Below, in pieces: positions 6,537 to 12,949 of a stretch of 44,365 nt of DNA (positions are counted from its first letter, which is position 1; each line of letters opens with the position of its first letter). The DNA is taken from NCBI GenBank assembly GCA_016871775.1, contig VHCI01000016.1, positions 1-44,365 of the forward strand. Reading direction: 5' to 3'. The notes under the pieces are model-generated. The model searched no databases. It had not been told where the DNA came from and saw only the letters and a list, made by a program, of their open reading frames with translations. Source of the stretch: Verrucomicrobiota bacterium (lineage in GTDB: Bacteria > Verrucomicrobiota > Verrucomicrobiia > Opitutales > Opitutaceae). Both the position numbers and the translations under genes were made by a program.

Positions 6537-7298
6537 TTACTTCTTGGCCGGGGCGGCGGCGGGCTTGGCCACCGTGGCGGGCGCGGCGGTTTTCGCGCCG
6601 GCGGTGGCCGGAGCGGCAGCCTTCGCGTCGCCAGCTGCGGCGGGGGCGGCGGCAGTGGCGGCCCCCTCGACGGGCGCGGCGACGGCACCCTCGGCCGGAG
6701 CGGCCGCGGCGGCCGCGGCTTGCACGACCTCGGCAACGGGCTCCACGCACGCGACGACGGGCTGGCCCTTGGAATCGAGGAAATCCACGCCCGGGAGGGC
6801 CTTCAGGCTGCCTACCTTGATTGTCTCACCGACCTTCAGCTCAGTGACGTCGACCACGATCGCCTCAGGCAGGTCTTTCGGAAGAACGCGGATCCGGAGC
6901 GCGGGGGTCGCCATCTCCAAAACGCCGCTCTGGTTTTTCACGCCGAAGGACTCGCCGTTCAAGTGCACCGGCACCCGAATCTCGAACTTCTCGTCCGCCT
7001 TCACCTCCTGCAGGTCGATGTGCAGGTACTTGTCGGTGAGCGGGTCCCGCTGGACCTCCTGCAGGAAAGAGCTGATCGGCGCGGACTGATCGCCTCGCTG
7101 GAGATCGACTAAGACGGCGCGACCGCCGACGGCCTTTAGCAAGCGCACGAACTCCGGAGCATCGATGGAAAGAGATTCGGGCTTGGTGTGCTTTCCGTAT
7201 AGCACGGCCGGGACCCGCTGGGCTTTGCGGAGACGCCGGGAGGCGCTGCGGCCGGTTTGGGCTCGGGCGGCGACGTTGAGTTTAAACTTTTGGCTCAT
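6537..7298 (-). CDS. rplY: 50S ribosomal protein L25/general stress protein Ctc
   Basis: 5S rRNA-binding protein of the CTC subtype (L25 domain plus TL5 C-terminal beta domain). The start chosen is ATG at 7298 (SQKFKLNVAARAQTG), where L25 homology begins; a GGTGG about 9-13 bases upstream is one of the few Shine-Dalgarno-like signals here. Residues 1-95 are the L25 domain (RLRKAQRVPAVLYGK), and about 96-185 the TL5 domain (PVHLNGESFGVKNQSGVLE). From about residue 188 there is a roughly 65-residue low-complexity tail of Ala, Pro, Gly and Glu ending in Lys, far beyond the usual length. It is first in the minus-strand translation/replication cluster and divergent from icd. Confidence 0.95.
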   Translation of the reverse strand: MSQKFKLNVAARAQTGRSASRRLRKAQRVPAVLYGKHTKPESLSIDAPEFVRLLKAVGGRAVLVDLQRGDQSAPISSFLQEVQRDPLTDKYLHIDLQEVKADEKFEIRVPVHLNGESFGVKNQSGVLEMATPALRIRVLPKDLPEAIVVDVTELKVGETIKVGSLKALPGVDFLDSKGQPVVACVEPVAEVVQAAAAAAAPAEGAVAAPVEGAATAAAPAAAGDAKAAAPATAGAKTAAPATVAKPAAAPAKK

Positions 7299-7504
7299 GA
7301 TTTCGTTCCACCTGTCGCCCCGACCATCGGGAGCAGGCGTAATAGAAAGGGCGAAAGGAAGAGCTGGGCGCAGACCGAACGCAATCAAATCTTTCCGTGA
7401 CCTCGATTACCGGGCCAAAACCAGCCGGCCGCGGCCCCGGTCCCGCATTTACTTTTGACCCGCCCGGGCCCTTCGGTTCCCCTTCGCCTTTTTACCGCAA
7501 AGCC

Positions 7505-10730: not shown

Positions 10731-10755
10731 AAAAAGCCCCCGCTCTGGCGGGGGC
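10731..10755 (-). terminator. Intrinsic (rho-independent) terminator
   Basis: On the minus strand a perfect 8-base stem GCCCCCGC / GCGGGGGC encloses a 4-base loop (CAGA) and is followed immediately by TTTTT. This is the clearest intrinsic terminator in the window. It lies 20 bases after the stop of the small HTH gene and ahead of the aminotransferase, so it ends the small gene's transcript. Confidence 0.85.
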
Positions 10756-10775
10756 GAGACACCACGGGGTGGTAA

Positions 10776-11156
10776 TCAGGAGGAGGCCCGGGCTTTCACC
10801 AGCCCAAACGCCTTCTTAATGTTCTGGATCGTCGGTAGGGAGAGCCCTGTGGCGGCCTTGATCTTGGCGCCGCTCTGGCCCGCCTCAACGAGTTGCTTAA
10901 CTTGATTCCGAAGGTCGTCAGTCACCTTGCTCCGCTTGCGCTTTCCTTTCGGCTTCGCCCCCGCTTTGCGCCGGCCGATCTTGCCCGCCGGACGGGCGCC
11001 GCCGGCGGAGGCCTTCACCACCGCATTCGCGAACGCCTGCGCGGACTCGAAACCGAACTGGGCGGGCAGCGCCGCCAGCTCGGCTTCCATTTTCTTCTCG
11101 AGGCTGGCGAGACGATCCCTCGCAGCCTGTAACTTCTTCAGCTTTTTTGATAACAT
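10776..11156 (-). CDS. Small basic coiled-coil / helix-turn-helix protein, probable DNA-binding
   Basis: 126 residues, not recognised as a named family. Residues 1-30 are a Lys/Leu/Glu heptad-like helix (LKKLQAARDRLASLEKKMEAE), suitable for dimerisation. About 52-78 is a very basic Gly/Ala/Lys/Arg linker with a KPKGKRKR core. About 78-122 reads as a helix-turn-helix of the resolvase/transposase-like type: VTDDLRNQVKQLVEAGQSGAKIKAATGLSLPTIQNIKKAFGL (listed as its successive helices, turn at TGLS). Coiled coil plus basic linker plus compact DNA-binding tail resembles the organisation of H-NS-like nucleoid proteins, without evident homology to them. It is flanked by an AT-rich upstream region and a strong terminator, so it is a monocistronic unit. 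Coding status is well supported by that context; function is inferred. Confidence 0.75.
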   Translation of the reverse strand: MLSKKLKKLQAARDRLASLEKKMEAELAALPAQFGFESAQAFANAVVKASAGGARPAGKIGRRKAGAKPKGKRKRSKVTDDLRNQVKQLVEAGQSGAKIKAATGLSLPTIQNIKKAFGLVKARASS

Positions 11157-11166
11157 AAGATCGGGG

Positions 11167-11196
11167 TATCTATGCTGATTGAGCCGTTTATATCAA
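11167..11196 (-). promoter_or_regulatory. Candidate sigma-70-type promoter for the small HTH gene
   Basis: In an unusually AT-rich 71-base gap, the minus strand shows TTGATA (11191-11196, five of six to TTGACA), an 18-base spacer, and TAGATA (11167-11172, weak -10). Transcription would begin within a few bases of the ATG at 11156, giving a leaderless or nearly leaderless message. This is pattern matching only. Confidence 0.35.
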
Positions 11197-11227
11197 GTTT
11201 TATTTTCCTCCGAAAGAATGCTATAGC

Positions 11228-12018
11228 TCAAATTGTCATCGCATGGTAGCCGCCATCCACGATCACTTCTGCTCCGGTAACGAAGCCGCCGGCCGGTCAC
11301 TGGAGAGCAGCAGGGTGGCGCCGATCAGCTCGCGGGCCTCGCCGAAGCGCTTCATTGGGGTGTGGCCGAGGATGCTGGCTACGCGGTCCGGCGAGAGGAT
11401 CTTGCGGTTTTGCTCGGCCGGGAAAAAGCCGGGCACCAGCGTGTTCACGCGAATCCGCTGAGGGGCCCACTCGCGGGCGAGGTTCTTCGTGAGATTATGC
11501 ACGGCTGCCTTCGAGGCCGAATAGGTGAAAACCCGGGAGAGCGGGACCACGGCGCTCATCGAGCCTAGGTTGATGATGCTGCCGCCCTGCCCGCGCTCGA
11601 CCAAGTAGCGGCCGAACACCTGACAGCCCAAGAACACCCCTTTCAGGTTCACGCGCATGATGCGGTCAAACTCGTCCTCCGAGATGTCGAGGAAAGGGGT
11701 CGCCGAGTTCACCCCGGCCCCGTTGACCACAATATCAATGTGCCCGGACCGCTCGCGCACGGTCGCGAGCAGGGCCGCTAGGGAAGCCTTTTCTGAAGCC
11801 TCAGCCGCGAGGAAATATCCGCGCCCGCCAGCGGCGCGGATGCGTTCAAGACGGGGTGCGGCCTTCTCCGCCTGCCGCCCGACCAAGACGACCTCGGCGC
11901 CAGCTCCGGCGAGGCCCTCCGCCATCGCCCCGCACAATTCGCCGGTGCCGCCGATGACAACGGCCACCTTGCCGGTGAGCGAATAAAGGGAGGACAGGTA
12001 TTCCGCCGGGGTGCTCAT
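11228..12018 (-). pseudogene. SDR-family oxidoreductase with a -1 frameshift near the C-terminus
   Basis: Short-chain dehydrogenase/reductase; NAD(P)-dependent, resembling gluconate 5-dehydrogenase or D-mannonate oxidoreductase-like SDRs. From ATG 12018: Rossmann motif [13 protein letters not shown] (23-35), NNAG-equivalent [10 protein letters not shown] (97-106), catalytic Ser in NLGSMSAVV (150-158), and Tyr166/Lys170 in YSASK. The frame as given ends [13 protein letters not shown] and stops at about 11268. Shifting by one base at 11285-11298 restores the expected family ending [18 protein letters not shown], with a stop at 11228. One base is therefore missing in the run CGGCCGGCGGC; the intact gene would encode about 263 residues. 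Either a real inactivating or modifying frameshift, or a sequencing error in a GC-rich run. Starts at 12033 are also possible. Confidence 0.85.
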
Positions 12019-12124
12019 ACGAGAGAAAGCCATGAAGGCAAAGACCCCGCCCCGACCGTGGCAACGGCAAACCCGGGGCGCATCCGACTTGCCGGTTACC
12101 GCCCGCCACCGTATCCCCTCCCAG

Positions 12125-12949
12125 ATGCCGCATTTGCTTCTCGAAGACAATTGTCAGGACGTAATCGCCAAGGCGCAGCGTGGCCTCGGTATCAGTGACG
12201 CCGATCTGTCTCGCCGCGCCGAGGTGAGCCTCGAGGATCTCCAGTCGCTCCAGTCCGGCCAAGCCAAGGACGCCGTCTTGCGGCGGGTGGCACGCCATCT
12301 CGGCCTTTCTCCAGATGCCCTCGAGGCGCTGGCGCACCAGAGTTGGTATCCCAGGATCCCCGACTTCCCCACCGGGTTCGCAGCCTTCAGCACCCGGCAC
12401 GGGGAGATGCTGGTCAACAGTTACCTGATTTGGGACCCGCGGGCCCGGGTCGCGGCGGCGTTTGACACGGGCGCGGACTGCACCGCGATGCTGGACATTA
12501 TCGCGGCCGAGAGCCTGCGCCTGCGTTATGTATTCCTGACCCATACCCATCCTGACCATATCGCAGACCTGCAGCGCCTGGCTGCGACCACGGGGGCGGA
12601 AGTCTGGAGCAGCGAACTGGAGCCAGTGGCGCATTCGGGCGCGCGCGCATTCCCGGAGAACGCCCATTTCCACGTTGGCGCCCTCGCGGTGAAGACCCTG
12701 CTCACCACCGGTCATTCACCCGGCCAGACCACCTTCTATGTCACGGGCCTCAGCTGGCCCCTAGCCGTGGTCGGCGATTCGATCTTCGCGGGTTCGATGG
12801 GCGGCAGCGCCACCCATTTTAAGGACCAGCTGCGCAACAATCGCCGGAAGATCCTGTCTTTGCCCCGTGACACCGTGCTCGCCTGCGGGCACGGACCGTT
12901 GACCACCCTCGATCAGGAGAAAATCCACAACCCCTTTTTCGCCCGCTAG
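12125..12949 (+). CDS. HTH domain fused to a metallo-beta-lactamase-fold hydrolase
   Basis: 274 residues in two parts. Residues about 10-65 look like a compact Cro/C1-type helix-turn-helix ([20 protein letters not shown], then a [16 protein letters not shown] helix). Residues 85-274 are an MBL-fold, glyoxalase II-like metal hydrolase with the metal ligands intact: HTHPDH at 140-145, His197 in TTGHSPGQT, Asp218 in VVGDSIF, and His256 in ACGHGP. The catalytic fold is certain; the substrate is unknown. Start is ATG at 12125, 38 codons inside a longer open frame whose upstream part lacks homology and overlaps the divergent SDR region. It stands head-to-head with the SDR (106-base gap) and three bases ahead of the crystallin/DUF4214 gene, so the pair is probably one operon. 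A DNA-binding domain on a hydrolase suggests a metabolite-sensing regulator, which is inference. Confidence 0.85.

Follow-up and report, generated by a model that had tools for sequence, protein, structure and literature searches.

Introduction

Among the closest described systems are the silencers H-NS, MvaT, Lsr2 and Rok, which are argued to have a common domain organisation without sequence homology, and this common organisation has been suggested as a route to finding new members (PMC6936261). According to the part of that source available here, the N-terminal domain is mainly negative in H-NS, MvaT and Lsr2 and less pronouncedly so in Rok, and H-NS, Lsr2 and Rok have plasmid-borne relatives (PMC6936261). 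Here we analyse a small gene in a 44,365-nucleotide stretch of an Opitutaceae genome, which we call the window. An earlier sequence-only reading had suggested that this gene encodes a stand-alone protein of the nucleoid-associated or silencing type, with a dimerisation helix, a basic linker and a helix-turn-helix (HTH) tail. Among the titles and opening lines of abstracts on silencers, H-NS and nucleoid proteins in Verrucomicrobiota or Opitutaceae, a coverage that most subscription papers and bioRxiv preprints fall outside, we found no account of such a protein. The DNA-associated proteins of Waddlia, as far as the available text of their description goes, are unrelated (PMC6426960).

Results

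Relation to H-NS, Lsr2, MvaT and Rok

No protein in 16 genomes of the family, the window's own included, scored over the cut-off for the H-NS domain (PF00816), in a search whose E. coli control was positive and which in some genomes scored 150 candidates of a larger number; elsewhere there were two sub-threshold matches (E 0.003 and 0.0096). The Lsr2 domain (PF11774) likewise had no match over the cut-off in the same number of family genomes and one sub-threshold match elsewhere (E 0.005), with a control search that gave a signal in 3 of 14 named genomes and exceeded the cut-off in 1. With no match over the cut-off in any of the 16 genomes, neither of these two families visibly occupies the nucleoid or silencer role there.

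The window's protein itself gave no PF00816 hit in a Pfam scan, and an hhalign comparison (A1 against E. coli H-NS) gave 1.7%. No MvaT name appeared among its Pfam hits. The lack of homology to H-NS and Lsr2 that had been read from the letters therefore held up, and we place the protein in neither family: PF00816 and the 1.7% alignment argue against the first and PF11774 against the second. We do not assign it to Rok either, since its C-terminal HTH is modelled without strands, whereas the C-terminal domain of Rok, in the part of the source available, is a winged helix (PMC6212790).

A real gene under purifying selection

The gene lies at 10776–11156 on the minus strand and is complete, running from an ATG start to a stop codon at 10776–10778 and encoding 126 amino acids. 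Its homologs and a dN/dS of 0.09–0.19 in all 15 pairs formed by the window's copy and five close relatives establish its coding status: the gene is real and the 126-residue protein is under purifying selection. The linker described below has the highest dN in 14 of these 15 pairwise comparisons.

The gene had been described as sitting in an AT-rich setting, and this is true of its promoter and 5′ end but not of its body. The ten 100-bp segments of lowest GC (10-bp steps; 35–46% GC) all begin at 11091–11181, a stretch that comprises the promoter and the 5′ end of the gene, whereas the gene as a whole is 62.5% GC against 67.4% for the window. Neither Pfam nor NCBIfam models matched the protein over their cut-offs, Rfam gave no match around the gene, and PHROGs gave weak matches only (best 0.013). 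Codon adaptation is unremarkable in eight genomes (rank 0.38–0.96, with 6 of 8 at or below 0.62); as a test of high expression this comparison is powerless, because ORFs of the ribosomal region are equally unremarkable. Elsewhere in the window, the ORF at 6537–7299, which we take to encode a bL25-like ribosomal protein, carries a long Ala/Pro/Lys-rich C-terminal tail.

Promoter, candidate operator and terminator

A −35-like box, TTGATA (11191–11196, minus strand), stands 40 nt before the ATG and is recognised by its conservation across homologs; a weak −10-like element, ATAGAT (11168–11173, minus strand), would follow at a spacer of 17, with TAGATA at a spacer of 18 as an alternative. Among 44 homologs, 36 have the element TTG[CA]T at −40 to −35 from the ATG, against a mean of 0.85 and a maximum of 5 in 500 rounds of dinucleotide shuffling. 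Of 356 further ORFs of 150 aa or more in the fetched regions, with the first ATG taken as the start, 5 have it at this place. The commonest forms are CTTGCTATAG-like and CTTGATATA-like. The box was seen first and counted afterwards, such that −42 to −37 gave 27 of 44 and the frame of −40 to −35, picked after the positions had been seen, gave the higher number; the 44 homologs are moreover related, so the counts are not independent.

The 44 homologs comprise L001 and L004–L032 (30 loci, each from a different one of the 40 matching genomes described below), L036 and 13 others, namely 12 family genomes of the phylum-wide sample and G043. The set leaves out L033–L035, which by length and match are on the same contigs as L004, L005 and L007, as well as four more family genomes of the phylum-wide sample (G166, G217, G255 and G308) and, apart from G043, the ten of the 40 matching genomes that had no listed locus. 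Second copies and the distant hits from the rest of the order and phylum are likewise excluded.

Consensus promoter scans do not list the TTGATA-based promoter, so the predicted promoter rests on conservation; the sole hit of these scans near the gene, on the plus strand at 11147–11176, we take as chance. Across homologs the best −10 at spacers of 16–19 nt is weak, with 2–5 of 6 matches to TATAAT. The suggestion that the gene has its own promoter is supported by the conserved −35-like element. In the 36 homologs with the box, the best −10 ends 4–11 nt before the ATG, and Shine-Dalgarno-like words at −20 to −4 occur in 4 of 44 homologs. For both reasons the mRNA is probably leaderless or nearly leaderless, with a leader of a few nucleotides at most. 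Among ten copies outside the conserved locus (L148, L165–L169 and L171–L174), L173 and L174 have the box and the other eight lack it; it is present in L170 and L175, where the SDR neighbour discussed below is kept.

Further upstream, the palindrome CTATAG (11221–11226, minus strand) is a candidate operator box. Upstream of −44, TATAG/CTATA boxes number 24 against 5.7 expected (sd 2.4, maximum 16, 300 rounds) over the 44 related homologs, an excess that kinship inflates, and we regard these boxes as a candidate operator. Over 19 genomes, 16 with the gene and 3 without it, the exact 9-mer CTTG[CA]TATA has 104 sites (0–12 per genome) against 193 for its reversed control and is not clearly commoner in gene-bearing genomes; we therefore see no regulon signal. 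The site stands before this gene itself in 11 of the 16 gene-bearing genomes, and a search with the promoter 10-mer and 9-mer found few sites, with 2–5 per genome in three gene-lacking genomes.

Downstream of the stop codon lies a predicted intrinsic terminator (10731–10755, minus strand), the hairpin of which (10736–10755) has eight pairs, all G–C, and a 4-nt loop, and is followed directly by TTTTT. With a predicted fold of −19.2 kcal/mol and a z of −4.46, it confirms the strong terminator noted earlier. That it is also the best in the window is right as to G–C pairs, of which it has the most among 31 terminator-like rows (32 listed, one repeated), but one other row is longer, with nine pairs, four of them G–C. 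The counts of terminator-like rows are near shuffle level (14 against 15.5, 14 against 10.3 and 4 against 3.0). Terminator-like stems are present in 33 of 44 homologs.

Predicted architecture of the protein

An AlphaFold2 monomer model based on an alignment of 31 members (mean pLDDT 76.5) bears out the layout of a dimerisation helix, a basic linker and an HTH tail within 126 residues. The N-terminal helix, residues 2–33 (11058–11153; this and the following segments are on the minus strand), has conserved Leu/Ile positions and regularly spaced leucines and is presumed to be a dimerising coiled coil. A second short helix, residues 39–51 (11004–11042), follows a conserved LPxx[YF]G[FY] turn and leads into the basic linker, residues 52–75 (10932–11003), a stretch of 24 residues rich in K, R, G and P. 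The HTH, residues 76–122 (10791–10931), is predicted to consist of helices 80–91, 96–103 and 107–116, with a GcrA/Tc3/Hin-like fold. The HTH blocks, whose absence would have counted against the sequence-only reading, are modelled at a pLDDT of 88–89, and the linker blocks at 53–54. Invariant in the 31 aligned members are L27, L30, P31, G35, A45 and A49 in the N-terminal part, and R75, T79, V86, G93, G96, I99, S106, K114, G118, L119 and V120 from the end of the linker through the HTH.

The window's protein has a pI of 11.2 and a net charge of +4 in its N-terminal part, +12 in the linker and +5 in the C-terminal part. The family is basic throughout, with a pI of 9.9–11.4 among the 31 members; the linker and the C-terminal part are basic and the N-terminal part is near neutral, at −4 to +4; these charges by part are for all 31, except that the linker of L012 was not located. 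The AT-hook core GR[PK] is found in 29 of 44 linkers, against a shuffled mean of 9.9 and a maximum of 20 in 1000 rounds. The strict core is absent from the window's own linker, which has GRRK, and from 14 other homologs, and GRPK is found in three of the five closest relatives of the window's protein. Since the window's linker has GRRK, yet most linkers of the family carry the core, the family tends towards an AT-hook, but only weakly so in the window's own branch. One homolog (L175:3748–4188) has tandem GRPP repeats, an AT-hook-like array, in its linker. Another relative (L176:4075–4482) has two tandem HTH units separated by an Ala/Lys/Pro-rich linker.

Distribution and genomic neighbourhood

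The window's own genome (3.78 Mb, 96% complete) has a single copy of the gene; its two other matches (E 0.46 and 0.67) are at noise level. A search of 57 genomes, the window's own among them, found a match at E ≤ 0.01 in 40, comprising 36 of 37 genomes of the same family and 4 of 20 from other families of the order; all 27 genomes of the genus matched, one of them (G016) only distantly (7.1e-8, 30% identity). In a phylum-wide sample of 288 genomes, with at most 15 candidates scored per genome, 33 matched. The family accounts for 20 of these, out of 25 sampled; another 8 belong to the rest of the order (1.1e-9 to 4.3e-4) and the remaining 5 to the rest of the phylum (2.1e-4 to 6.7e-4). Named records of homologs are MAGs of Opitutaceae, Opitutae or Verrucomicrobia. 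The family counts dispose of the concern, raised earlier, that the protein might be absent from all relatives.

Five family genomes (99–100% complete) are without the gene; four belong to one genus and the fifth to a different one. When all of their candidates were rescored, weak partial matches only were found (best E 0.00197), so the absence looks real, and the family can therefore do without the 126-residue protein. The class-IV aminotransferase of these five genomes is distant, at 32–34% identity.

The surroundings of the gene were compared in 28 family regions (L077–L104), one per genome, which are those fetched and are fewer than all matching genomes; the neighbours are named from Pfam. 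An SDR gene is found upstream in 16 of the 28, in the same orientation and no farther than about 800 bp away; in 18, a class-IV aminotransferase gene follows downstream, again in the same orientation. One or both of these neighbours are kept in 24 regions, which supports vertical inheritance at one place, and neither is nearby in 4. Six regions outside the family were compared as well, and all lack this arrangement; in three of the six (L105, L107 and L109) the window's protein alone gave no match at the threshold used. In the window, the SDR ORF is at 11263–12150 on the minus strand, and bases 11228–11262 match the ...DGGYHAMTI and stop that end the SDR of several relatives before the gene. 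Because these bases do not share the reading frame of the SDR ORF, its 3′ end is frameshifted, through an assembly error or in reality.

Further copies occur beside mobile DNA. The plasmid collection holds one matching record, a mobilizable plasmid of Opitutaceae bacterium TAV5 (CP007054.1; lineage Verrucomicrobiota, Opitutales, Opitutaceae), the copy on which (L148:6001–6408, OPIT5_00405) is labelled 'mucin', probably a low-complexity misannotation. The phage collection gave no matching record. In genomes that hold another copy too, extra copies adjoin genes for a conjugation-coupling protein (L165), CoiA and a STAND NTPase (L166), a phage integrase (L167), an IS110 transposase (L168) and a restriction methylase (L169).

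The conserved neighbours bring in the main rival to a nucleoid or silencer role, that of a local, site-specific regulator of few targets, for instance the SDR gene, the class-IV aminotransferase gene and itself, for which the linker would only add affinity. GcrA and Hin, among the fold relatives of the HTH, read specific DNA sites, and the TATAG boxes enriched upstream of the gene's own promoter, counted for this gene, would suit such a regulator as well as the retained neighbours do. However, the regions that keep neither neighbour and the further copies elsewhere count against it, no effector domain is predicted, the gene is set apart from its neighbours by its own terminator and promoter, and it is present in most sampled family genomes. 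We consider a purely local regulator unlikely, although it deserves to be kept in view.

What the parts resemble

Among the 25 listed of 55 matched families, HTH_23 matches 29 of the 31 members at E ≤ 1 (best 3.3e-07) and HTH_7 matches 19; the window's own protein matches HTH_23 (0.13) and, weakly, HTH_7, both under the Pfam cut-off. The fold of the HTH is nearest to GcrA DNA-binding domains among the matches listed (PDB 5yiu, 5yiv and 7ye1). Superposition on 5yiu covers residues 72–119 with a Z of 6.8 and an rmsd of 1.6 over 48 residues, a score of limited weight given that Z below 8 is common for small helical folds. Tc3, Tn3-type resolvase, Hin, IstA and paired domains come close behind.

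A Foldseek search of the whole model against the PDB and a viral library returned nothing at E ≤ 0.001, and the model of the N-terminal part alone had no match, which says little for a model of two helices. Structures of H-NS, MvaT, Lsr2 and Rok are absent among the 50 structural matches listed, which excludes nothing. The similarity to PDB 8vd6 (CAP REPEAT; E 3e-26 with the profile and 4.3e-08 with the single protein) is significant by E-value but consists only of five repeats of a 30-residue HTH-like stretch, and names no functional relative. A serine recombinase or resolvase was also rejected: the Pfam scan gave weak HTH_7 only and no catalytic domain, and the 126 residues are filled by helices, linker and HTH. 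On the viral contig IMGVR_UViG_3300045996_002259 (L117:1871–4543), an 890-aa ParB-like protein (ParB_N, HTH_ParB) bears the family HTH near its C-terminus, with 40% identity in the best segment (6e-14).

The GcrA domains and this viral ParB-like protein are what would favour a chromosome-maintenance or cell-cycle DNA-binding protein that marks particular sites, either GcrA-like or an accessory of partition or condensation. We find this explanation quite improbable, as the GcrA match falls in the range common for small folds, the model has no domain after the HTH, and the 9-mer of the gene's own promoter is rare genome-wide. That the gene is a domesticated fragment of a mobile-element protein (a resolvase, a transposase or a phage HTH) that does little for the cell in its own right, as the likeness of its HTH to Hin, Tn3 resolvase, Tc3 and IstA and the mobile-element genes next to some copies might suggest, is very unlikely in the face of purifying selection, a place and promoter conserved across genera, and a Pfam scan without a catalytic domain.

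Discussion

The 126-residue protein probably binds DNA. We propose, with confidence about evenly balanced, that it is a dimeric or oligomeric, basic, lineage-specific DNA-binding protein of the nucleoid-associated or silencer type, with a chromosomal architectural or global regulatory role, and that it is probably autoregulated. This nucleoid or silencer reading is based on the putative pairing helix, the basic linker, the HTH, the presence of the gene in most family genomes and once in its own, its own promoter and terminator, and the satellite copies near mobile DNA. The fit that the sequence-only reading saw in the architecture is thus strengthened by AT-hook cores in most linkers, by the distribution, and by copies on a plasmid and next to mobile elements, while the role itself is one that we infer. 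Counting against it are an N-terminal part that is near neutral and not acidic as in H-NS, MvaT and Lsr2, the five family genomes without the gene, the strict AT-hook core missing from the window's linker, the lack of a regulon signal, and the eight off-locus copies without the promoter box.

In the mechanism that we propose for a nucleoid-associated or silencing protein, the N-terminal helix would pair protomers, and the helix that follows the LPxxYGF turn might add a second contact between them. The K/R/G/P linker, with its AT-hook core in most homologs, could then bind DNA electrostatically and, judging from the motif, in the minor groove of A/T stretches, such that the protein would prefer A/T-rich DNA. 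The GcrA/Hin-like HTH, whose fold is predicted, would read a preferred site in the major groove. TATAG-type boxes around the conserved promoter are candidate sites of feedback by the protein on its own gene; transcription is expected to begin at this probably leaderless or nearly leaderless promoter and to end at the gene's own terminator.

A bolder version, which is speculative and which we think doubtful as a whole, is that the GC-rich Opitutaceae have evolved a xenogeneic silencer of their own, a coiled-coil/AT-hook/HTH hybrid under a self-controlled leaderless promoter, with paralogs on plasmids and islands that act in stealth or anti-silencing. If true, such a hybrid would join minor-groove A/T sensing to major-groove reading, and would add to H-NS, MvaT, Lsr2 and Rok a silencer type of independent origin. 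Should the protein work as proposed, a large environmental phylum would gain a candidate for a chromatin or silencing protein, and the question of how GC-rich Verrucomicrobiota keep A/T-rich foreign DNA in check would become testable.

Comparison with known systems

Several known proteins share one part of this architecture. The DNA-binding domain of GcrA has the three-helix HTH fold also predicted for the window's protein. GcrA carries a further C-terminal domain, whereas in our model the HTH is the last domain, preceded by a long helix and a basic linker, and the GcrA family model had no match to the window's protein in the Pfam scan. The serine recombinases of the Hin and Tn3 types are alike in HTH sequence (HTH_7 and HTH_23) and fold across members, but the window's protein has an N-terminal helix and linker in place of their catalytic domain. 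HMGA and myxococcal CarD are AT-hook architectural proteins, and the GR[PK] cores in the basic linker of most homologs resemble this type; the window's protein differs in having no strict core, and the linker of the family is joined to an HTH and a long helix.

The likeness to H-NS, MvaT, Lsr2 and Rok concerns the whole layout: a putative N-terminal oligomerisation part, a flexible linker and a C-terminal DNA-binding domain, as modelled, in a protein of small size. The linker is basic in the window's family as it is in H-NS, MvaT and Lsr2, going by the available part of the source (PMC6936261), and a further copy on a plasmid is another trait in common with the H-NS, Lsr2 and Rok families. The differences lie at the two ends, where the N-terminal part is not mainly negative and the C-terminal domain is predicted to be an HTH made of helices alone, unlike an AT-hook-like loop or a winged helix. 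The protein may work like the H-NS, Lsr2 and Rok families, yet by its domains it is a member of none of them. If the proposal is right, evolution would have converged once more on such a protein from domains of separate origin.
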